Part shown: positions 3,343 to 14,311 of the stretch, piece after piece
How the letters are laid out: every line of letters starts with the position of its first letter
How positions within the stretch are numbered: the stretch's first letter is position 1
NCBI GenBank assembly: GCA_021806345.1
Contig: JAJZXP010000232.1
Location: forward strand, 1-14,646
DNA: 14,646 bases
Source: Thermoplasmata archaeon
GTDB taxonomy: Archaea; Thermoplasmatota; Thermoplasmata; Thermoplasmatales; Thermoplasmataceae
Reading direction: 5' to 3'
Made by a program: the position numbers and the translations under genes
Notes under the pieces: generated by a model
What the model saw: only the letters and a program-made list of their open reading frames with translations
Told to the model about the DNA's origin: nothing
The model's database searches: none

Positions 3343-3373
3343 CAAGCCCCCGCAATAGGAAGGTCTGATGAAA

Positions 3374-3388
3374 AGGCTCTTTTTCTCA
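3374..3388. repeat. 15-bp direct repeat, left copy
   Basis: AGGCTCTTTTTCTCA occurs here and again at 13975-13989 in the same orientation, about 10.6 kb apart and enclosing the island. The right copy lies just before the tyrosine-recombinase remnant. It could be an attachment-site scar, but it is short and pyrimidine-rich, so chance is not excluded. Confidence 0.3.
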
Positions 3389-3439
3389 CTTTTATTTTCT
3401 CCAGAAGACTATACGTAATGTGCCATCTTTATCGGAGTT

Positions 3440-3646
3440 ATGAACAGCAGAGGTGAATCACTCTACCTGCCCGATGACCTTGCGGTCCAGAGGGCAAGGA
3501 AGATGGGATACAATAAGGGATGGAATGACCGCAAGTTCCAGGACTTCAGCATCATTGAGGAGGCGCTAAGGCAGAGCACGAACTTCACAGAGTTCTCGCA
3601 GATACTCAGGGAGAAGATCACGGAACTGGAAAGGAACGTAGGATAG
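3440..3646 (+). CDS. Small unknown protein, first gene of a two-gene operon
   Basis: A 68-residue soluble protein starting MNSRGESLYLPDDLAVQRAR. I do not recognise it. It has a charged, mostly helical composition, with a second half IIEEALRQSTNFTEFSQILR that looks like two amphipathic helices. The stop TAG overlaps the GTG start of the next gene by one base (TAGTG), so the two are translationally coupled. Both proteins end with a similar helical layout ('..A....T...ef...L.e....'), suggesting a distant duplication. Base composition is richer in GC than the island, like the coxM gene, so this is more likely core genome. Start ATG at 3440. Confidence 0.65.
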   Translation: MNSRGESLYLPDDLAVQRARKMGYNKGWNDRKFQDFSIIEEALRQSTNFTEFSQILREKITELERNVG

Positions 3647-3855
3647 TGGCTAAGAGGAATCCCTTCACCAATGAATATTACACCGGCCGGAAGGATCAGT
3701 ATGATCTGAATTATGCACTATTCAGGAAGGCTGTGGAGGAGACAGAGACAAGGGATGAGCTCATAAAGTTCCTCGAGGAAAGATTTGGTTACGTAATATC
3801 GAAAATTGCGGACCAGAACGCAAAGGAGCTTATGGAAGACCTGGAACTAATCTGA
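3646..3855 (+). CDS. Small unknown protein, second gene of the operon
   Basis: A 69-residue protein beginning with GTG at 3646, overlapping the previous stop by one base. It starts MAKRNPFTNEYYTGRKDQYD; its middle (ALFRKAVEETETRDELIKFL) is helical and resembles the second half of the upstream protein. It has no transmembrane segment or catalytic motif, and I do not recognise the family. Its last nine bases overlap the end of the winged-helix remnant on the opposite strand (stop at 3847), so the two were convergent neighbours. The function may involve binding its operon partner; that is inference from coupling alone. Confidence 0.65.
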   Translation: MAKRNPFTNEYYTGRKDQYDLNYALFRKAVEETETRDELIKFLEERFGYVISKIADQNAKELMEDLELI

Positions 3856-5545: not shown

Positions 5546-5952
5546 TCAAGGAAAGTTAATGGATGTCACATTGTAATCGAGGTATTTTTGCGGATCCAGC
5601 CAATAATTAACCTTTCCATCTTTTCCGACATTACTAGATATTTCTTTCCTAACATATTCCGTCGGTAGTTTATAAAGCAAGATCCTTTCGCCATATACTC
5701 CCGTGCAAATTACCAAGTAATCAAAGTTCTCGGTTATACCAAAGTCAGTAGAAAACGGGGTTGGCTCCTGATCTGAAAGCGATTTATCATTACTCTTATG
5801 TCCTTTCCCTCTTTATGAAGTCTTATGTGACCTGATTTAGATATATCTGTATCAATATCTACATCAAGTTACCTCTTTGATTTTACATAAGCCACGTAGT
5901 AAAGCCCTATTTTATGGGTTAAAAAGTTGTTTTTTCCACGTTTCCCACTCAT
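5546..5952 (-). pseudogene. Decayed PD-(D/E)XK-nuclease-like gene directly downstream of dpdA
   Basis: ATG at 5952 lies six bases after the dpdA stop. It reads MSGKRGKNNFLTHKIGLYYV AYVKSKR, then an in-frame TAA (5869-5871), then in the same frame LDVDIDTDISKSGHIRLHKE GKDIRVMI. One base shifted, it continues SLSDQEPTPFSTDFGITENF, DYLVICTGVYGERILLYKLP and on to TGA at 5546-5548. Restoring one base after ATAAA gives a protein of about 135 residues. The 'G.I.v...gk.irV..Ks' strand pair plus 'fDylv.c' is the layout of a PD-(D/E)XK restriction-like fold. His and Met stand where catalytic Asp and Glu would be, so decay reaches the active site. The nuclease call is by fold pattern, not by identity. 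Spacing implies it was co-transcribed with dpdA. Confidence 0.55.
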
Positions 5953-5958
5953 TATGAA

Positions 5959-7152
5959 TTATAATTTTTTGTTTTTTATTTTAGCGTTGTCGCCTAACCA
6001 GCTCTTCAACTGAGAGAGTTGTTCACCTATTTTTCCATTCGCTCTTTCCGCACTTAGCTCTTTGGGAACAACAAACTGATAGGGCTCTCCACCCAATACA
6101 AATATTTCCTTATACGACTCCGCATATTTCTGAAAATCCGATCTAAAAACAACTCTATAAATTTCTGCTGAACTCATATCAAGTTTCAGGTCGTAAGGGC
6201 TTATTTTATCCTTGTAATCAATAAGACCATACTTTGCTGATAGTATTTTTATATCAAGATGATTGTTACGTGATTTCAAGTAACCTCGCACCATTTTGAA
6301 AGATGGGCCATCATAAACATTTATTGCTTTGCCTGGCTCTTGTTTTTTGACCTTTCCACACGCCATAATTAGGAGCCTCTTCTCTTTGTTGTTCGCACTG
6401 AACTTTGGTTCATCGTAGATTGTTCCGGTGTTCGATTGAAGTGGATTAAACACTTTCTCTATTACATATCTTCTTGTTTGCTCAAACCTGTCATTTTTCA
6501 TATCCGCCTGTTTTTTATTGTATTTGAAGATCCAACCTTTGTAGTCGGAAGCCCATACATCTACCTGATTGAAAAACTGAAGTCTTCTTCTATTAAACAC
6601 ACCCAATGGAAAAATCTTGTCACTAGGAAAGTTGGTTCTGACCGCTCTGAGAACATTTCTTAACATTATGTCGTGCTTTACCTTTACCAATCGAACGTGA
6701 TTAGGTATTTTATCAAGAAGTCCGCCAATGGCGACGATATCTAGACCGAGTTCTCTTTGTTCGCGGTAACTTTGCAAGTACTCCGCCACAGATTTTCCTT
6801 GAGCAACGCCAATCAATTTGAAACTTTTAGTTCCATTTTGATACTCTTTGATTGCTAGTTCCGCACTTTCCAGTGTTTTCTTTCTATCTCTAAAATAATC
6901 TTTTATTATTCCATAATTAACACCCATTGCTTCATAAGATCTGAAAATTTGAGAATATGAATAGTCTGTCTTTTTTTGGAATATTCCAGAATCTCCTACT
7001 TTAACTGTCGCCAAATTAAAATCAGAAAATTGTTTTTTGAAATTGCCACTAGTGAAAGCATGGGCAAGGATTCCAAATTCCCCCTTGTGTTCAGTGAGTC
7101 CTGAAAGGATCCTGAGTGATGCTGGTCTATCCACAACAAAAATAGGTATCAT
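5959..7152 (-). CDS. dpdA: DpdA-like TGT paralogue fused to a DUF6884/YaaA-like domain
   Basis: 397 residues. Residues 1-235 follow the tRNA-guanine transglycosylase barrel: DSGIFQ at 54-59 (TGT DSGGFQ), IGVAQGK at 114-120, VAIGGL at 140-145, FPLGV at 181-185 and VDVWASDYKGW at 198-207, holding the candidate nucleophile Asp198 or Asp203. The TGT zinc site (CxCxxC...H) is absent, as is the PUA domain of archaeal tRNA TGT. DpdA proteins are TGT paralogues that put 7-deazaguanine into DNA. Residues about 258-365 (LLIMACGKVKK, ILSAKYGLID, ISPYDLKL) match DUF6884, a YaaA-like domain. A TATA box precedes the ATG at 7152, and a nuclease-like remnant follows within six bases. The alternative is a divergent tRNA enzyme; the missing zinc and PUA parts argue against it. 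Confidence 0.72.
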   Translation of the reverse strand: MIPIFVVDRPASLRILSGLTEHKGEFGILAHAFTSGNFKKQFSDFNLATVKVGDSGIFQKKTDYSYSQIFRSYEAMGVNYGIIKDYFRDRKKTLESAELAIKEYQNGTKSFKLIGVAQGKSVAEYLQSYREQRELGLDIVAIGGLLDKIPNHVRLVKVKHDIMLRNVLRAVRTNFPSDKIFPLGVFNRRRLQFFNQVDVWASDYKGWIFKYNKKQADMKNDRFEQTRRYVIEKVFNPLQSNTGTIYDEPKFSANNKEKRLLIMACGKVKKQEPGKAINVYDGPSFKMVRGYLKSRNNHLDIKILSAKYGLIDYKDKISPYDLKLDMSSAEIYRVVFRSDFQKYAESYKEIFVLGGEPYQFVVPKELSAERANGKIGEQLSQLKSWLGDNAKIKNKKL

Positions 7153-7179
7153 GGGTTATATTCCATAGGTCCACTAATC

Positions 7180-7188
7180 ATTTAAATG
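7180..7188 (-). promoter_or_regulatory. TATA box of dpdA
   Basis: Minus strand ACATTTAAATG covers this site, centred about 32 bases upstream of the ATG at 7152. It implies a leader of about seven bases and separate transcription from the helicase operon. Confidence 0.45.
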
Positions 7189-7592
7189 TTTTCAGGAATC
7201 GTAACTGGTCATTGGAATGTGCAAGACCTCTCATCGTTAACTCATCGTAACATTTGAGCATGCTGAGTTTTTCGTGGTTTGAAGTAATGTTATATCAAAG
7301 TATTCCGGCCTATGTGTTTAAACGTCATGTTAAGCTGGTAGAACACGATGCTGGAATCGGAAATTGAATCGTTTCCATGCATATTAGACCGAGCAATTAC
7401 TGAAAATAGGCATTGGCAAATTCCAGCTGTTTTCAATTTCAATAAGTCTAAAATCCACTGAGTGCTAATTCCAGACTGCAAAAAACTTAACCAGTTTTTA
7501 CATTTTTTATACGAACAGCATCGTCATTTTCTGTTCTATCAACCTAGAAGCGATATTACCAAGAAATCTCAGGGCATAGAAAGCGATAAAGT
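7189..7592. other. About 400 bases with no recognised gene
   Basis: Only short chance-like frames occur here. A 63-codon minus frame (7290-7481) has no promoter, no recognisable motif and an atypical composition. A 30-codon minus frame directly after the 399-residue gene (LNFIAFYALRFLGNIASRLI..., stop at 7507-7509) looks faintly like a transposase tail but is too short to call. The stretch separates the dpdA unit from the helicase operon. I see no tRNA, CRISPR or strong hairpin. Confidence 0.4.
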
Positions 7593-8792
7593 TCAATTTA
7601 TTAAATAATTGCTGAAATTTCTATTAATCAGAGTCCCATTGTAGAAGCCTGTACTTTCCACACTATTCATGAACTGGATGAACAGGGATATGGGGTCATC
7701 AGAGGATATTATTGATTCAATTAAACCCTTATATTGAGGGAGGGCAATATACGCTTTCAAGAGCCTGAACACAAATTTTGGAGATAAAAAAATGTAATCT
7801 ATTGATTCATCCTTTTCATTAACTTTCCTCCATTTCTTTTCAGAGGTTATTTCAGGAATAGATTCTGGAAGACCATACATGATTTTTTTCCTCAACTCAT
7901 ACAGAGTATCCCTGCGAACAGTCACGATACTCGTGATCTGGTTATACTTAACATGGGGATTAGCGAAAGGAGCAATAGAATCCCTTGTGTAATCATAAAA
8001 TGCCAAACCAACCAGGATGTTTTTTTCTGCTCTGTTCAGTCCATCGTGCTCTATGTTATAGATAGTATAAACCTGACCTATATATAGGCCATCTCCTGAT
8101 TGTGACAGCGGGTGATACATCCCGTACTCCATCGACAGTTCAATAGGAAATAATTTTGCTCCAAATGAATCGAACGACGAAAAAAACGCGTCAACCTCTA
8201 CCGTTTCAATTCTCCTTGCACCAAAAGATAATACAGATTTACGACTCGCTCCCCTAAAACTATCTATCGTAAACTTCAATATTAGTATATTAAATGTACA
8301 GTCAGCTTCGTCCTTGCTAAACTCTGTTCTGCTTCTTATATGGATGTGTCTCTTTTGAGAAATTGGGATATACCTTATTCTGCCACCATCATTTTTTGAA
8401 ATGACTGTAGGGGGTTCCAAAGAAAGTGAAAGGTTGAGCGTGTCAATGTAAAGTTCAAAAAGGTATTCTGGCAACTCGAATTTGCTGATTTTCCCATAGG
8501 AAACATAATTGTTCTCTATTTTAGTTCCGTGAGGGTTTATCAAGACCATTTCATTCCGTTTTCCTATTGTCTCTCGAATTTTCTCAGATATATTTGCAGT
8601 TGTTACGGTCAGGGAAACAAGTTCGCCAGTTTCCGGAAAAATGGCTGGATAAAAAGTGCTGGATACAAAAATTGTACGCAATCCACTCTTTGAAGAATCT
8701 GTGATTGTAATTGCCCTTGCTCTGCGATTATAAAAAGGTGAATAAAATGGGTGCAAAATAATGCTATCCATTATTTCATTGTCATTTGTCAT
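7593..8792 (-). CDS. Unrecognised 399-residue protein of the helicase-PLD operon
   Basis: I do not recognise this protein. It starts MTNDNEIMDSIILHPFYSPF, has no signal peptide or membrane helix, and is rich in alternating hydrophobic strands (LRTIFVSSTFYPAIF, LVSLTVTTANIS, CTFNILILKFTIDSF), so the first two thirds are probably a beta-rich fold. The last third (KFVFRLLKAYIALPQYKGLI) is helical. Its ATG overlaps the stop of the PLD gene (ATGA at 8789-8792), so it is translated with that gene and very likely works with it and the helicase. By position it could be a counterpart of one of the poorly characterised Dpd proteins, but I have no sequence basis for naming one. A role as specificity or accessory factor is inference only. 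Confidence 0.8.
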   Translation of the reverse strand: MTNDNEIMDSIILHPFYSPFYNRRARAITITDSSKSGLRTIFVSSTFYPAIFPETGELVSLTVTTANISEKIRETIGKRNEMVLINPHGTKIENNYVSYGKISKFELPEYLFELYIDTLNLSLSLEPPTVISKNDGGRIRYIPISQKRHIHIRSRTEFSKDEADCTFNILILKFTIDSFRGASRKSVLSFGARRIETVEVDAFFSSFDSFGAKLFPIELSMEYGMYHPLSQSGDGLYIGQVYTIYNIEHDGLNRAEKNILVGLAFYDYTRDSIAPFANPHVKYNQITSIVTVRRDTLYELRKKIMYGLPESIPEITSEKKWRKVNEKDESIDYIFLSPKFVFRLLKAYIALPQYKGLIESIISSDDPISLFIQFMNSVESTGFYNGTLINRNFSNYLIN

Positions 8793-9241
8793 GCCAAAAG
8801 CCTCGATAAAACTTCCTTTTGCGCCTTTTCAACAACACTGATTGTTACAATTTCACGATTCTTGTATATGCCGCTATAGGTAACGTTTGCACTGCCAAGG
8901 TAGAGTAGGTAATAGCCCAGCACCGCCTTCATGTGGAGACCTTTAATTACATTGACCTTGAACCCCTCTTTTTCGAACTGCTCTAAGGAAGCTTGCGTAT
9001 ATCCATCATTATTCGACATATCGCTGGTAAAAACCTCTGTGTCTACGCCTCTTATGCGCTCCTCTAAACATAGTTGTAATAATGGGGTCTTTTTCACGGG
9101 CTGTTCCCAAGGCCTAATCAGTGAAACAGATGCATTAAGCCAAGGTGAAATTATGTAGACTTTTTCTTTACCAGGGGTAAGCAAGTATATTGTTGGTATG
9201 AGATAAGATAAATGTTCACCTCTAAAGGAGAAAAACGCCAT
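8789..9241 (-). CDS. Phospholipase-D-fold (HKD) protein, DpdK/DrmC-like by context
   Basis: A 150-residue single-domain PLD-superfamily protein. The N-terminal strand KVYIISPWLN and the C-terminal motif GLHMKAVLGYYLLYLGSANV TYSG hold the HxK...GSaN core (His103, Lys105, Ser117, Asn119) followed by a conserved NRE. The Asp usual four or five residues after the Lys is not seen (Gly/Tyr instead). Such proteins act as dimeric nucleases; small PLD proteins accompany helicases in DISARM (DrmC) and the Dpd system (DpdK). I choose ATG 9241 over an upstream in-frame TTG at 9253 because a GGTGA ribosome site lies six bases before it. The start overlaps the helicase end by 20 bases and the stop overlaps the next ATG, indicating tight coupling. 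Confidence 0.8.
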   Translation of the reverse strand: MAFFSFRGEHLSYLIPTIYLLTPGKEKVYIISPWLNASVSLIRPWEQPVKKTPLLQLCLEERIRGVDTEVFTSDMSNNDGYTQASLEQFEKEGFKVNVIKGLHMKAVLGYYLLYLGSANVTYSGIYKNREIVTISVVEKAQKEVLSRLLA

Positions 9242-12200
9242 AATTTTCACCAAGTAAATTTGGACTCTTTACAATTATGCCCCCCTCTTTCACGAGTTTT
9301 GCGACGTCATTTGAATTATTAGTTTGAATTATAAGTGTCTCAAAGTACCAGTGGGCTATTTCTCGACTTATGTGATCCAACTGTTCATCGTCTCCCATCT
9401 CACAGGACTGTAGGGCCAAACAGTAGTGGCAACCATCCACACATGTTGGATAACTCTCTACAACTTCACCCTCTGACAAGGATAGGGTATCCGCAATTTC
9501 CTTTGTGAAACCACTCCTATCGGATAGAGACCTCGTGGTTGAATATAGTCTCATTAATTCATTATATACGTTCGTCCGTTGAGAAGAAGACTGAATCTTA
9601 TTGTGCTCCTCACATTCGATTATTGAAGCTATGTCTTGAAGAACCCGGTTAGTAGACAAAGTGATATAGTCGATGAACGTTATCAGATAACCTGACCCAC
9701 CTTCTTGTAATTCACCTATAATTATTTTATAGTTAACCTCATCTATTTCATAGACGAATTCATCCGGGGAAAGTCCTGTAACGGTAGATATCGTTTTGAG
9801 CCAGAGGTGTGCTATGCTATGTAACACATCATGTTCCGAGAATTGTCCTCTTTGAGGATATATCTGTTTGAATTTATTGTACAAATCATCTACTCTTTTC
9901 TTTCCTATTTGAATGCTCAATGCATGACTGCTTATCCAGTATCCATAGGGCCTACTGGCTTCAAGATAGAACGTGCTCGAGCCCCTGCCTGGCATATATG
10001 AGGCAAAATCTTCGTCATAGTAACAGTTTCGAATGCTAAGGGCTACTCCTTTAAGAACTATGGTTACCTCTGCAGTCTTAGACATATCTATTCCTTTGAA
10101 AGGACTTGTCAAATTTCCGAGAAACTCCACAGAGACTTCTTCTTCAGGAGAAGCATAAGCTCTGACTATAGACAATCTGGCATGGCAATCTGGACAGTTC
10201 CTAGTGTTAGAATCAAAGAATTTGAAACAATTTCTGCAAAATTCTACAACATCGTTAGTACTGTCTAGTGCCCTTATCCTTTCGATTCTTACTGATTTTG
10301 GAAAAACTACAGTAGAATCATTGTAGATAAAACTCACACCGTCTATGAAGCTTGCAGTTTCAAAGGTAATCCTTGATCCATCCATTCTTATTTCTGGTAG
10401 GGTAACTAGCTTCTGACCCTGAGTACCATATTCGTTAAGTCTTAACGGAAAGAATTTGTAAATGAGATCACGAATGTCGATACTCTCACTATTCTGTCCT
10501 GGCCTATGGATATATCTCTCACACTCCGCTCCCGACGATGAAAACAGATTGTTTGGAGGAAGCACAGGTAAGTCAAGATTATTACTAGTACTCAAATTGT
10601 AAGACGGGATGAAAAAGTATTGTGCCCTAAGGACGTATTTTACTATTTCCGAATTCAATGTCTTTGTAACTGCCTCATTCAATTCGTAGAGGGTTCTCAA
10701 TTTCAAGAACAATATTCTCACCTCGTTCTGAGCATTAGCGAGTGAATTGGTGTTAGCAAGTCTATTAATTTTGGAATAAGAATCTCCGGCCATTATCGAG
10801 AGATCAGTATTTCGGTAATTGATTGCCAAAGTATTCAAAAATGTTAGCAAGTCGTTCTGGTTATTTTGTTGCTGTGCTGTGTTGCTACCATTTCCATTGA
10901 GATCGAAAATAACTGAATCAAATCTGACAGTTAAATCACGCATTATCGCATTCTTTATCGCATCCGAGAGCGACAATGAATCAACCGCTTTAGTCAGTAG
11001 TGCTTTCTCTCTGCTTACGTATTGCAAAGGAGTCAACCCATCCAAAAGAAGTCCGTTTAAGAGATTCAAGTTATTATCAATAGCCGATTTTGCACTTGTT
11101 ACATTCGAATTCTTGAATGAAGTAAAATCGGAAAAACTGCTCATGTTTCCAAGGTTGGAAAAATTCAAGGCAACTTCTTGTTCCATGAAATTTAGGAATT
11201 CCGGGCAAATTGACCTGATTATAGTCTCCCAAGCGGATCTAAACTTGTAAATGTATTCATTATTACCCACACTGATTCCACTGATAAGACTGGTGTAATT
11301 AGAAGCAATATCCTCATAGATCACTTCTAATTCAGAATGTACTTTATTGATCAATACATTATTCTCTTCAAGAGGTAAACGATATTGGCGCGTCAGAAGT
11401 TGGGATCCTAGGGAGAAATAGAGATAATCATTTGAGCGATCTCCGAGGATAAAGTAGAATTCAGGGCGTGTCCCTGGGGCTCTTCCCGCTCTTCCCTTTC
11501 TTTGGATGTAATTGAATATCGTATAGGTTGCTCCGTATTGCACAAGGTGGACAATGTCAGGAAGGTCAATTCCCAACTCAAGTTCTGCAGTCGAGAGAAT
11601 GATACTTGAAGTGGTTATTTGGTCAGTTTGCAAATTTTGAGAGGATACTGGAGTAATACTCAGCCGGCCTGGAGAGTTAATGTTTTTGTTATTCCTTAAT
11701 ATGGCCCAGCATTCACCGTTGGCAAAAACTCCACATGAATTGTGGCAATTGGGTCTTAATCCAGTGCATTGGTCATTTATGAAGCCGTTTTGTCCATTGA
11801 GCAAACCGTCTAATCTGAAATTGTGCAAATGTTTAGTGTTGTATGCATCTTCAGTCTGTCTGGAAAGTAGACCCACTGCGTCTATGGAGTCTATAAAGGC
11901 AAGAGTCTTTTCTGTGTTTCTTGCGTAAGATGACTGTAAAATTAGCATAAATTGGATGAAACTTTGACTTCTAAGACTATAGGAGGAAGCGTTTTCTCTA
12001 TTTTTGTCTGAAGCTTTTAAAAAATAATATGTCTCGCCGCCTGAAATTGGGGTTTTATCCATTTGCTCTGGTTCAAAAACCTCAACATCATTTCCGAATA
12101 TCTTCTGGCCAAATTTACTTGGAGAGTCAATAGTGGCACTTAAACCCGCAAATAATAATCTCTCATTGGGCTTTAACTTCCTAATTTCTTTTATTAAAGA

Positions 12201-13220
12201 ACTTGCATGACTGCCATAAATTGAATTATAGGTGTGAACCTCGTCAACTATCACAGCTTTGAGCCTTTTCTTGAAGTCCGCTCTTATGTCTGGATCAGAT
12301 AGCAAGGATTCCAATGAGTTAAAAGTTGTAAAAAGAAGATTTGGCTGTATAGTACTATGGGTGTCCCTGGCAATTGAGACTTCCATCTCGTTTCCACAAG
12401 AATTACATTTCCAAGAATTGGCTTTCAGAAAGCTGGCACTTGTCCCTCTTGGTCCAGAGCGGTAGTTTGTACTTCTTATGTGTAGATTAGTTTCAAATTT
12501 CCCACCACATGAGCATTCCATCAATAGCAACTTAGCCTTATCCATATTTGAATTTACATAAGTGACCTGCATAATCTCGTTTTCAAAGGAATAATTCCAA
12601 TACGCTTTGTAGTCTATATTCGATGAAGTCGGTTGGTTATTTATCATAGCATTCTTCTGTTCGCTTTGATAAATTGTCCACTCCAATTTTGGTTTTATCT
12701 CGGTCATTTGGATTCCAAGTTTCAGTTTCTTTGCTCCCAAATTGTAAGCTCCAAGTCTTTTTATTTGATCGAACACAAGTGCTCTTCTCGGTACGATAAC
12801 AAGAACAAGATCCCCAGTTTCAACAGCATGTTTCATTAATGGTGGCACAACCGCCTCAGTCTTACCAAACCCAGTAGGTGCAGCTACGATCATGTCTTTG
12901 GTTGTATTCCCAGCAAGAGTTTTGTTTACAAACTCCCAACTTTTTATTTGAAACGACATAAAGCTTGGAAATTTTAGTAAACTCGCAACATCGAGCAGGT
13001 ACCCTTGGAGTGAGTTTTTTGATATTGTGGCGTTTTTTTCAAGTTTTGTGCCAAATTCAATCTTCAGGGATGAATTTAGAAGAGGAGCTTTTTGATCCTG
13101 GTGTAACTTCAATCTCTGCTTCATTTGAATGATGCCCCGGGCTAATAATTCATTATCCATTGATACGTTAGGCAAGCTTCTCAATAATTGCAAATCATTC
13201 ACATTGTCTATTCTGGTCAC
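9222..13220 (-). CDS. Large SF2 helicase with DUF1998/MZB-like C-terminus, DpdJ-like
   Basis: 1332 residues. DEAD-type motor: Walker A APTGFGKTE 114-122, VPRRALVFDQ 143-152, DEVH 326-329, GLSATI 359-364, STAELELGIDLP 543-554, motif VI QRKGRAGR 573-580. Cysteine pairs at 236/238 and 272/275 form a probable zinc ribbon inserted in the first RecA lobe; a second cluster lies at 485-504. After a helical middle come CRNC...CPDC (995-1012), HDVLHSIAHLWL (1130-1141), GELQEGGSGYL (1169-1179) and C1260-C1264-C1267-C1273, the DUF1998/MZB zinc site of MrfA-like helicases. In DISARM these parts are separate (DrmA, DrmB); in the Dpd system DpdJ carries helicase and DUF1998 together, the closest match here. 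It probably translocates on DNA for the PLD nuclease. The start GTG overlaps the upstream TGA (GTGA). Confidence 0.88.
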   Translation of the reverse strand: MTRIDNVNDLQLLRSLPNVSMDNELLARGIIQMKQRLKLHQDQKAPLLNSSLKIEFGTKLEKNATISKNSLQGYLLDVASLLKFPSFMSFQIKSWEFVNKTLAGNTTKDMIVAAPTGFGKTEAVVPPLMKHAVETGDLVLVIVPRRALVFDQIKRLGAYNLGAKKLKLGIQMTEIKPKLEWTIYQSEQKNAMINNQPTSSNIDYKAYWNYSFENEIMQVTYVNSNMDKAKLLLMECSCGGKFETNLHIRSTNYRSGPRGTSASFLKANSWKCNSCGNEMEVSIARDTHSTIQPNLLFTTFNSLESLLSDPDIRADFKKRLKAVIVDEVHTYNSIYGSHASSLIKEIRKLKPNERLLFAGLSATIDSPSKFGQKIFGNDVEVFEPEQMDKTPISGGETYYFLKASDKNRENASSYSLRSQSFIQFMLILQSSYARNTEKTLAFIDSIDAVGLLSRQTEDAYNTKHLHNFRLDGLLNGQNGFINDQCTGLRPNCHNSCGVFANGECWAILRNNKNINSPGRLSITPVSSQNLQTDQITTSSIILSTAELELGIDLPDIVHLVQYGATYTIFNYIQRKGRAGRAPGTRPEFYFILGDRSNDYLYFSLGSQLLTRQYRLPLEENNVLINKVHSELEVIYEDIASNYTSLISGISVGNNEYIYKFRSAWETIIRSICPEFLNFMEQEVALNFSNLGNMSSFSDFTSFKNSNVTSAKSAIDNNLNLLNGLLLDGLTPLQYVSREKALLTKAVDSLSLSDAIKNAIMRDLTVRFDSVIFDLNGNGSNTAQQQNNQNDLLTFLNTLAINYRNTDLSIMAGDSYSKINRLANTNSLANAQNEVRILFLKLRTLYELNEAVTKTLNSEIVKYVLRAQYFFIPSYNLSTSNNLDLPVLPPNNLFSSSGAECERYIHRPGQNSESIDIRDLIYKFFPLRLNEYGTQGQKLVTLPEIRMDGSRITFETASFIDGVSFIYNDSTVVFPKSVRIERIRALDSTNDVVEFCRNCFKFFDSNTRNCPDCHARLSIVRAYASPEEEVSVEFLGNLTSPFKGIDMSKTAEVTIVLKGVALSIRNCYYDEDFASYMPGRGSSTFYLEASRPYGYWISSHALSIQIGKKRVDDLYNKFKQIYPQRGQFSEHDVLHSIAHLWLKTISTVTGLSPDEFVYEIDEVNYKIIIGELQEGGSGYLITFIDYITLSTNRVLQDIASIIECEEHNKIQSSSQRTNVYNELMRLYSTTRSLSDRSGFTKEIADTLSLSEGEVVESYPTCVDGCHYCLALQSCEMGDDEQLDHISREIAHWYFETLIIQTNNSNDVAKLVKEGGIIVKSPNLLGENYGVFLL

Positions 13221-13423
13221 TTAATCACACTCCTAATCTCCTGCTGTTTCAGCTTCCAATGAGAGTCCCTTATCTTAGCGAACTGACTGTGGCTGATATT
13301 GCCATTCATGAAGAACGATTTCATCACGAATACTCCCCCTATAATGGGATTCCCAGTACCCTTCACTTGGAACCAGATGGTATTTTTCGTCACCTTCTCA
13401 AATTCCATTTTACTGTTATTCAT
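13217..13423 (-). CDS. Small beta-rich family protein, copy 2, coupled to the helicase
   Basis: 68 residues from ATG 13423 (an in-frame GTG at 13432 and an ATG at 13408 are alternatives). It begins MNNSKMEFEKVTKNTIWFQV then KGTGNPIIGGVFVMKSFF, matching copy 1 at 13641-13810 ('EFE..TKNT..FQ.k..G.P.IG....qKs.f'). This is a small archaeal/bacterial family without a known function that I recognise by pattern, not by name. The C-terminal half (SHSQFAKIRDSHWKLKQQEI) does not match copy 1, where the family has 'KVKVTVEWE', so the tail may be shifted or replaced. Its TGA overlaps the helicase GTG, so it is at least a leader cistron for the helicase. A frameshift tail is the main alternative. Confidence 0.6.
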   Translation of the reverse strand: MNNSKMEFEKVTKNTIWFQVKGTGNPIIGGVFVMKSFFMNGNISHSQFAKIRDSHWKLKQQEIRSVIK

Positions 13424-13428
13424 GTTTT

Positions 13429-13560
13429 TCACCCTTTCAAAATCTCCTTGTAGTCTTTGTTTTCAACACCATGCTTATCCGTGCTTGTCATATTCGGATA
13501 TATATGATGTCTAGCTTCCTCTTCCTTCTCAAATTCCTTCCCTCATGACCCGCATTTCAT
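13429..13560 (-). pseudogene. Small C2H2-like zinc-finger protein with TGA in place of a Cys codon
   Basis: From ATG 13560 the frame reads MKCGS, then TGA (13543-13545), then GKEFEKEEEARHHIYPNMTS and TDKHGVENKDYKEILKG, ending at TGA 13429-13431. With Cys for the first TGA, the N-terminus becomes CxxC-GKEFEKEEEARHH, a one-finger C2H2-type module of the kind common in small archaeal proteins. A single base change (TGC or TGT to TGA) explains the stop. It sits between the two copies of the small beta-rich family, six bases upstream of the ATG of copy 2. Selenocysteine is unlikely: I see no supporting element and this archaeal group is not known to use it. Confidence 0.55.
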
Positions 13561-13640
13561 TCCATCACTCACTTCCCATTCACCTTTCTATCTCTCACGT
13601 TGTTAGCGCAAACGCACCACAAAGGTAATCCTGTTATTAT

Positions 13641-13810
13641 CTACTCCCACTCCACGGTTACCTTCACCTTCTTTGGCTCCTTCGAACTGAATACGGATTT
13701 CTGAACATACACAGCGTGCCGATAGCAGGAGTACCCGATGATTTCTCCTGGAATCTGTATGTGTTCTTGGTCTCACGCTCGAACTCGAATTCTATCTCTG
13801 TTCTGTCCAT
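13641..13810 (-). pseudogene. Small beta-rich family protein, copy 1, frameshifted
   Basis: ATG 13810 reads MDRTEIEFEFERETKNTYRF then QEKSSGTPAIGTL, after which the frame goes wrong (CMFRNP...). Moving two bases forward restores YVQKSVFSSKEPKKVKVTVE WE and TAG at 13641-13643. The lesion is a TG repeat (CTGTGTATG), where loss of one TG would repair it, so slippage is the simplest cause. The repaired protein would be about 55 residues. An upstream in-frame ATG at 13834 is possible, but GGGTGA lies just ahead of 13810. It is the first cistron of the helicase operon and paralogous to 13217-13423. Confidence 0.6.
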
Positions 13811-13858: not shown

Positions 13859-13974
13859 GCATCAGGCAACATGGGAACAAATGATTTACTCGAAAACAAT
13901 TTATAAACCTTGTTACGATGCATGCTACGAGTTCACATTGCACTGGCTTCTGGAGATGGTACGGCCTCATAAAT

Positions 13975-13989
13975 AGGCTCTTTTTCTCA
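13975..13989. repeat. 15-bp direct repeat, right copy
   Basis: AGGCTCTTTTTCTCA, identical to 3374-3388. It lies 17 bases before the tyrosine-recombinase remnant and, with the left copy, brackets the island. Confidence 0.3.
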
Positions 13990-14006
13990 TTTCATCGGAA
14001 AGGACA

Positions 14007-14236: not shown

Positions 14237-14311
14237 TGCTCCGGCCGGGATTTGGACCCGAGTCGAGGGATTGAGAGTCCCTAATGCTTGACCTGGCTAC
14301 ACTACCGGAGC
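14237..14311 (-). tRNA. tRNA-Glu (CUC)
   Basis: The minus strand folds as a cloverleaf. Acceptor GCTCCGG pairs with CCGGAGC, with discriminator A. The D arm begins GTGTAGCCAGG. Anticodon stem AGGGA/TCCCT holds loop CTCTCAA, giving anticodon CTC. The T arm is TCGGG-TCCAAAT-CCCGG. GCTCCGGTAGTGTAG is the usual start of archaeal tRNA-Glu. CCA is not encoded (TAT follows) and there is no intron. It decodes GAG. Confidence 0.93.

Follow-up and report, generated by a model that had tools for sequence, protein, structure and literature searches.

A candidate compact Dpd-like modification-restriction cassette with a fused mini-DpdA/DUF6884 writer in Thermoplasmatota

Dpd, BRIGADE and BREX-Related Capture (BRC) already join writers of the tRNA-guanine transglycosylase (TGT) type to restriction engines, according to the available text of PMC12839542 and PMC12458937. 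In the accessible portion of the latter, BRIGADE was reported from halophilic archaea only, with a cluster of genes for 7-cyano-7-deazaguanine (preQ0) and usually two YprA helicases, and the accessible portion of PMC12839542 held DpdB to be needed in Dpd, except in some clusters. In the experiments described in the available part of PMC6884629, DpdA of phage 9g together with Gat-QueC modified E. coli DNA with no DpdB added. Here a 14,646-nt stretch from a Thermoplasmata archaeon (contig JAJZXP010000232.1; the window, to which all coordinates refer) was analysed, which contained 26 open reading frames (ORFs) of at least 60 amino acids, ten of them scanned with profiles. A short TGT-like protein with a fused DUF6884 domain, called the writer, was found beside a DpdJ-like helicase, a small phospholipase D (PLD) protein and ORF399. 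Probably this set is a compact system of modification and restriction in Thermoplasmatota that resembles Dpd, and judged from its sequence the cassette is most likely functional. The annotated genes dpdA-K of Enterobacter cloacae plasmid pPOL9A (L071) served as the yardstick for Dpd.

The mini-DpdA/DUF6884 writer

The NCBIfam DpdA profile matched the writer at E 5.8e-8 (32 bits, under the curated equivalog cut-off of 200 bits) and was the best family in all seven writer relatives scanned, with 34-47 bits and none above the cut-off; the Pfam TGT profile gave no match to the window writer at E 0.1. By single-pair E-values of hhalign, the mini-DpdA domain was nearest to DpdA (8e-16), followed by archaeal TGT (2e-7) and bacterial-type TGT (1.2e-4). 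The AlphaFold2 model of the writer had a predicted local distance difference test score (pLDDT) of 89, and DpdA 7ui4 was ranked first in the PDB fold search with it. In a tree which took in 13 of the 31 aligned writers, the writer stood with five DpdA, apart from 12 TGTs that were of tRNA type or second copies (support 100/98), and the approximately unbiased (AU) test rejected its union with archaeal TGT (p 0.0067) as well as with bacterial-type TGT (p 0.0077), so that neither tree nor AU test placed it among the tRNA TGTs. By profile and tree the TGT-like protein is thus assigned to DpdA rather than to the tRNA TGTs, in line with the first-pass annotation, which had called it a DpdA-like paralogue.

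Relatives of the writer were searched in 389 genomes (12 matched, three over the whole writer) and in 392 genomes (20 matched, seven over the whole writer). The 19 loci compared below are 14 from a separate search made before these two, one of G007 (L033) added from the 389 genomes, those of G516, G526 and G554 (L117-L119) added from the 392, and the window; matches to the C-domain only were left out, some of them coming from full-size DpdA matched at the C-terminus (L122). The nearest writer among named genomes was that of Thermoplasmatales archaeon L001 (70% identity). Residues D54, D85, Q118, G143, G144 and D203 aligned with columns common to DpdA and TGT, and their counterparts in the Zymomonas TGT are presumably D102, D156, Q203, G229/G230 and D280. 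D54, D85 and D203 were kept in all 19 loci and Q118 in 18, with H in L014.

The last third of the writer overturned, at domain level, the earlier statement that dpdC is missing: it is a DUF6884 domain (Pfam E 1.2e-14) related to DpdC (PADLOC E 7e-7; hhalign E 4.4e-11). It would be a distant, DpdC-like domain fused to the writer, and no full-length DpdC was seen. DUF6884 was fused to the writer in 16 of the 19 loci and encoded by a gene of its own within the locus in three (L010, L011 and L014), with C265 and K269 kept in 15. In Heimdall L012 the fused C-terminal part had neither C265/K269 nor a Pfam DUF6884 match, and its homology rests on few shared residues. The idea that the C-domain is simply an ArcS domain was rejected, with an hhalign probability of 25 (E 7.6e-4) versus 97 for DpdC. 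Separate DUF6884 proteins reached a probability of 70 against ArcS, and the DUF5591 profile touched separate DUF6884 genes weakly (G001, E 2.7e-4; G339, E 0.0096). Because of this ArcS/DUF5591 likeness dG+ could be the product, while dADG would be the likeliest one, rather than dPreQ0 or dG+. Other preQ0 enzymes are a model for a cysteine thioimidate, and by analogy such an adduct may be formed at the DUF6884 cysteine.

The writer was also sought in mobile elements. In viral contigs, searched with patterns able to capture a part of the possible relatives, neither the writer nor the helicase nor ORF399 had a match, and phage records searched by tblastn with the writer were likewise negative. 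Among viral models, structure comparison picked out DUF6884 proteins standing alone and viral proteins of the TGT/DpdA type, and ten plasmid records matched the writer over the DUF6884 part only.

Partner genes, gene order and preQ0 supply

A TGT-like ORF, a helicase and a small PLD protein had been described on one strand, and all three were located on the minus strand (Table 1), with DpdA-, DpdJ- and DpdK-like identities borne out by NCBIfam profiles, each under its curated cut-off. ORF399, between the PLD gene and the writer, had been overlooked. The genes follow each other in the direction of transcription as ORF71, helicase, PLD gene, ORF399 and writer; the overlaps among the first four are 4, 32 and 4 nt, and 440 bp separate ORF399 from the writer. 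As stated earlier, no dpdB, folE, queC, queD or queE was matched among the ten scanned ORFs; likewise, reference DpdB had no match in the window at E 10. BLAST of the window against reference DpdB-K gave DpdJ, a weak DpdK and otherwise chance-level matches. Scans for sigma-70 promoters and terminators, of little use for archaea, were not relied upon.

The helicase matched NCBIfam DpdJ at E 4.3e-34, with 117.4 bits under a cut-off of 800. Among defence profiles it was nearest to DpdJ (E 6.6e-39), the next non-Dpd profile being BrxH (7.4e-27), and its nearest solved structure by sequence was YprA (E 1.3e-11). In pairwise hhalign the helicase of haloarchaeal L072 came first (1.1e-28), then DpdJ of L071 (1.1e-22). 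The helicase motifs were intact, and four cysteine clusters (236-275, 485-504, 995-1012 and 1260-1273) were kept in three aligned relatives. Of the two features of the YprA family, an SF2 core and a C-terminal zinc (DUF1998/MZB) domain, the core was seen. For the DUF1998 identity given before, Pfam DUF1998/MZB gave no match at E 0.1, and a C-terminal cluster of four cysteines (1260, 1264, 1267 and 1273) was present and kept in the same three relatives. In the accessible text of PMC12458937 (Bell et al.), Dpd helicases have a zinc motif in RecA1, and the DUF1998 cysteines are lost in canonical Dpd and kept in some deeper-branching Dpd-like systems; the clusters of the window helicase fit this picture as far as that text gives it. 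The PLD protein matched Pfam PLDc_2 (E 3.6e-7) and NCBIfam DpdK (E 1.2e-11, 44.4 bits under a cut-off of 100). It carries a single HxK...GSxN motif, and a dimer is therefore expected.

Table 1. Features of the cassette in the window
Feature	Position	Strand	Evidence
Writer, mini-DpdA (residues 1-246) + DUF6884 (about 258-386), 397 aa	5959..7152	-	Profiles, AlphaFold2 model, PDB fold search, tree, active-site columns
Mini-DpdA domain with D54, D85, Q118, G143, G144, D203	6415..7152	-	hhalign
DUF6884 domain, DpdC-like, with C265 and K269	5995..6381	-	Pfam, hhalign, residue conservation
ORF399, no known family, travels with helicase-PLD set	7593..8792	-	No match in four family libraries; kept in L001, L002
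PLD-family nuclease (predicted), DpdK-like, 154 aa	8789..9253	-	Pfam PLDc_2, NCBIfam DpdK, motif
YprA/DpdJ-like DEAD-box helicase, 1332 aa	9222..13220	-	DpdJ profiles, YprA, motifs
ORF71, small ORF, 4-nt overlap with helicase start, membership uncertain	13217..13432	-	Coordinates

Two other Thermoplasmatota loci, L001 and L002, held helicase, PLD gene, ORF399 and writer in the order of the window. Identities to the window were 74, 75, 63 and 70% in L001 and 40, 45, 25 and 51% in L002, in this gene order, and ORF399 and writer are 167 and 44 bp apart, respectively. Since both loci keep all four genes in order, the association of the writer with the helicase-PLD-ORF399 set, which had been proposed as a functional link between two units, is judged from gene order not to be due to chance. 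When 389 Thermoplasmatota genomes were searched with the helicase, 24 matched at E 1e-5, 23 of them over short helicase motifs and one, at the L001 locus, over the full length. Of the reference Dpd genes, the stretches retrieved for L001 and L002 showed DpdJ and DpdK alone at E 0.02 or better.

The host supply of preQ0 that had been suggested fits the pathway genes of 15 archaeal genomes, of which 12 carry a complete writer locus (L001-L009, L012, L013 and G007) and three do not (G339, G316 and G169); the search took in neither the window's own genome nor bacterial L010, L011 and L014. TGT (E 2.1e-54 or better) and the ArcS-type DUF5591 domain (E 3.8e-35 or better) were present in all 15, and QueC in 14 (E 2.4e-54 or better), the fifteenth being G144, the genome of L009, with E 3.5e-4. 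Among the 12 writer-bearing genomes, TGT and ArcS domains were found elsewhere in all 12 and a strong QueC in 11. Thus preQ0 would normally be available, and the writer would be an extra paralogue.

ORF399 matched nothing in four family libraries, and its profile found no PDB sequence up to E 10. A word search found four ORF399 proteins, including that of the window. With the profile, four of 389 genomes matched, namely G001, G169 (E 9e-14), G316 (E 3e-6) and G164 (E 6e-4), and two of 374, G717 (E 1e-29) and G504 (a short match). The relative in G717 (436 aa; L125:3-6884) faces a DISARM DrmA-DrmB-DrmC operon, and that in G169 comes after a helicase matched by DpdJ and DrmA and after a methyltransferase-like gene. 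The weak relative in G316 (81 aligned columns; L047:6477-12385) lies beside PD-(D/E)XK-like and ATPase genes and faces a DndC-like gene. Given that its distant relatives neighbour helicase operons, DISARM among them, ORF399 seems to accompany helicase modules and not the writer. The G164 match looks like chance, with no defence genes on its 5.25-kb contig, and the 484-aa gene of L005 (probability 0.04) and the NurA gene of L003 (probability 0.12) were rejected as relatives.

Several small features were observed around the cassettes. ORF71 belonged to no family in four libraries, and none of the relatives' loci had a counterpart of it at E 0.001; it and a shorter minus-strand ORF at about 13660-13810 have similar starts by eye, as if duplicated. 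Two small plus-strand ORFs lie at 3440-3855, among them ORF69 (3646-3855), whose relatives in L001, L002 and L003 lie downstream of the writer and point towards it; this family had six copies in three of six genomes searched, four of them at writer loci. An imperfect 37-nt direct repeat (78%, exact 15-base core) at 3355-3391 and 13956-13992 lies on either side of the entire cassette, with tRNA-Glu (14237-14311) nearby, and could mark the ends of an element or be terminator-like sequence. L002 has a phage-integrase gene upstream on the opposite strand (Pfam E 3e-19), and at the edge of L001 there is a fragment like an integrase N-terminus (E 0.0017, under the cut-off). Another small family occurs near the cassettes (L001:3711-4007, L001:19601-19912, L002:2770-3042, L003:3974-4360 and L032:15948-16241); in L002 and L032 it was matched weakly by Pfam as winged-helix-like, which hints at a possible shared regulator.

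Engines beside the writer

A helicase, HerA or SIR2-ATPase module adjoins the writer on the same strand in all 19 loci. HerA was found in 12, with a NurA-like gene beside it in nine (L003, L004, L006, L007, L008, L013 and L117-L119). The contig start of L009 cuts off the NurA position, and cyanobacterial L011 and L014 have a gene there with no NurA-profile match; the naming as NurA is based on weak Pfam matches in six of six members (best E 2.5e-4). The helicase-PLD-ORF399 set adjoins the writer in three loci (window, L001 and L002), and a SIR2/ORC-CDC6-like protein with a 334-aa-type gene in two, L033 (by Pfam) and L010 (by homology). Archaeoglobus L005 has a two-piece helicase with MZB and PLD, whose best profile is Druantia E (E 6e-82), and Heimdall L012 (294-9942) has DrmA (E 1.3e-77), DrmB (E 1.6e-24) and PLD genes, followed by mini-DpdA.

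The helicase-type writers did not form one clade (AU p 0.0023, an optimistic value, as this test was chosen once an initial 16-locus tree was known), and thus modules appear to have been exchanged. The L002 writer (helicase type) is sister to that of L003 (HerA-NurA) with support 100/99 and 71% identity; L003 and Methanoperedens L004 share 73% identity in NurA and 62% in HerA, but only 36% in the writer. With close writers in the one pair and close engines in the other, either engine or writer would have been exchanged. Two points weigh against this reading: the six module-type changes needed on the writer tree were equalled or undercut in 48 of 200 shuffles, so that the types are no more clustered than chance, which fits swapping and proves nothing alone, and its weight rests on the L002/L003 pair. 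It is about evenly balanced whether mini-DpdA/DUF6884 is a portable, mainly archaeal 7-deazaguanine DNA writer plugged into unrelated restriction engines that were repeatedly exchanged by recombination, the mark and not the engine defining the class. The engines under that evenly balanced reading would be HerA-NurA, the YprA helicase-PLD-ORF399 set, DrmA-DrmB-PLD of the DISARM type, a helicase-PLD fusion resembling Druantia E, and a SIR2-ORC ATPase.

A second archaeal layout was observed in L032 (G001:C47, 8517-13897) and L036 (G339:C28, 10787-15821), combining a full-size DpdA with genes for a stand-alone DUF6884 protein, a UvrD/GajB-like helicase and a Cas4-like nuclease. The DpdA of L032, in the same genome as L001 and on another contig, scored 413 bits, above the cut-off, and part of the gene set recurs in L121.

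Proposed mechanism and comparison with known systems

The mini-DpdA domain would swap guanine in host DNA for preQ0 drawn from the archaeosine pathway, apparently without DpdB, and the fused DUF6884 would convert the nitrile into the amide (dADG), probably through its conserved cysteine. The YprA/DpdJ-like helicase, with ORF399 as a putative coupling or mark-sensing subunit, would scan DNA and direct the PLD nuclease to DNA in which the mark is missing at its presumed target sequence, so that restriction would spare the host. This proposal is supported by computed domain identities, fold, active-site residues, gene order and the preQ0 pathway of relatives. Several results weigh against it. The DpdA, DpdJ and DpdK cut-offs were not reached, the hhalign values are single-pair ones, and VIA ties DpdA with TGTs, with no separation in the fold comparison. 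The writer has no counterpart of the zinc-bearing end of DpdA, its long stem in the tree may bring long-branch effects, and DpdB was not seen in the window set. In addition, the four-gene order is common to three loci only, and the AlphaFold2 model of ORF399 from a six-row alignment had a pLDDT of 40, so no fold is claimed.

It is very unlikely that the writer is an RNA-modifying TGT paralogue, acting on tRNA or another RNA and merely lying next to defence genes, since the tree and AU tests speak against it, the genomes already have their own TGT and ArcS, and a defence-type module adjoins it on the same strand at every locus. Some viral DNAs carry 7-deazaguanines (PMC6884629, in the part available), which makes it conceivable that the mark labels the foe, the writer modifying invading DNA as an attack or the helicase and PLD protein destroying such viral DNA; this is quite unlikely, because a writer encoded in the cassette would put the mark on the host's own DNA and expose it to attack, and Dpd itself combines genes for writing with genes for restriction (accessible text of PMC12839542). 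The window might also show one part of a known Dpd or BRIGADE, with the remainder elsewhere, as could be suggested by the closeness of the helicase to those of L072 and DpdJ, by the deeper-branching Dpd-like systems with DUF1998 mentioned by Bell et al., and by the above-cut-off DpdA on another contig of the L001 genome. Such a split system is unlikely, given that DpdJ and DpdK were all that the L001 and L002 stretches yielded, and that BRIGADE, as portrayed in the available text, is a haloarchaeal system with its own preQ0 cluster.

If the Dpd-like modification-restriction reading is right, 7-deazaguanine self-marking of chromosomal DNA extends to non-halophilic archaea, in which preQ0 is already made for tRNA, with writing and finishing packed in one fused gene, and restriction engines of differing mechanism have exchanged a modification writer. 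It would become testable whether one mark is respected by nucleases that differ widely, and a minimal two-domain writer would be at hand for biochemistry. In the open-licence literature, outside which most subscription journals and preprints lie, no earlier description was found of the mini-DpdA/DUF6884 writer, its non-halophilic archaeal use with host preQ0, its HerA-NurA pairing or the engine exchange, and no work there joins tRNA-guanine transglycosylase, HerA and NurA; on DpdA with HerA, PMC12839542 alone, judged by its title, is on the subject.

DpdA-DpdC fusions occur naturally in haloarchaeal plasmid L072 (19344-22247), together with queC, queD, queE and folE genes, and in reverse order in cyanobacterial plasmid L073 (1074-3149), beside dpd-type genes; by gene content L072 resembles BRIGADE in our reading. 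The cassette shares with BRIGADE its archaeal host, the fusion of DpdA and DpdC-like domains in the order of L072 and a related helicase; it differs by a single helicase, PLD in place of the PD-(D/E)XK of L072, the non-halophile clade and no linked preQ0 genes, since neither such genes nor two YprA helicases were found among the ten scanned ORFs and the relatives are Thermoplasmatota. Like BRC, 12 of the 19 loci pair a TGT-type writer with HerA, whereas BRC has PglZ, DUF6079 and DUF4007 and no DpdC (PMC12839542, in its accessible part), and the relatives here show NurA-HerA-writer. The YprA-type helicase and PLD recall DISARM, as do the distant ORF399 relative facing DrmA-DrmB-DrmC in L125 and the DrmA-DrmB-PLD genes with mini-DpdA in L012; unlike DISARM, the window helicase is not split as DrmA/DrmB, no methyltransferase was matched in the scanned ORFs and the writer is a transglycosylase. 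From Dpd the cassette departs in its one short fused writer, in having no DpdB, D, E, F, G or H, in scores below all curated cut-offs and in the extra ORF399. Because defining features of Dpd and BRIGADE were looked for and not found, it is filed under neither; yet, with a DpdA-type transglycosylase, a DpdC-type domain, a DpdJ-type helicase and a DpdK-type PLD protein, it is Dpd-like in its working.

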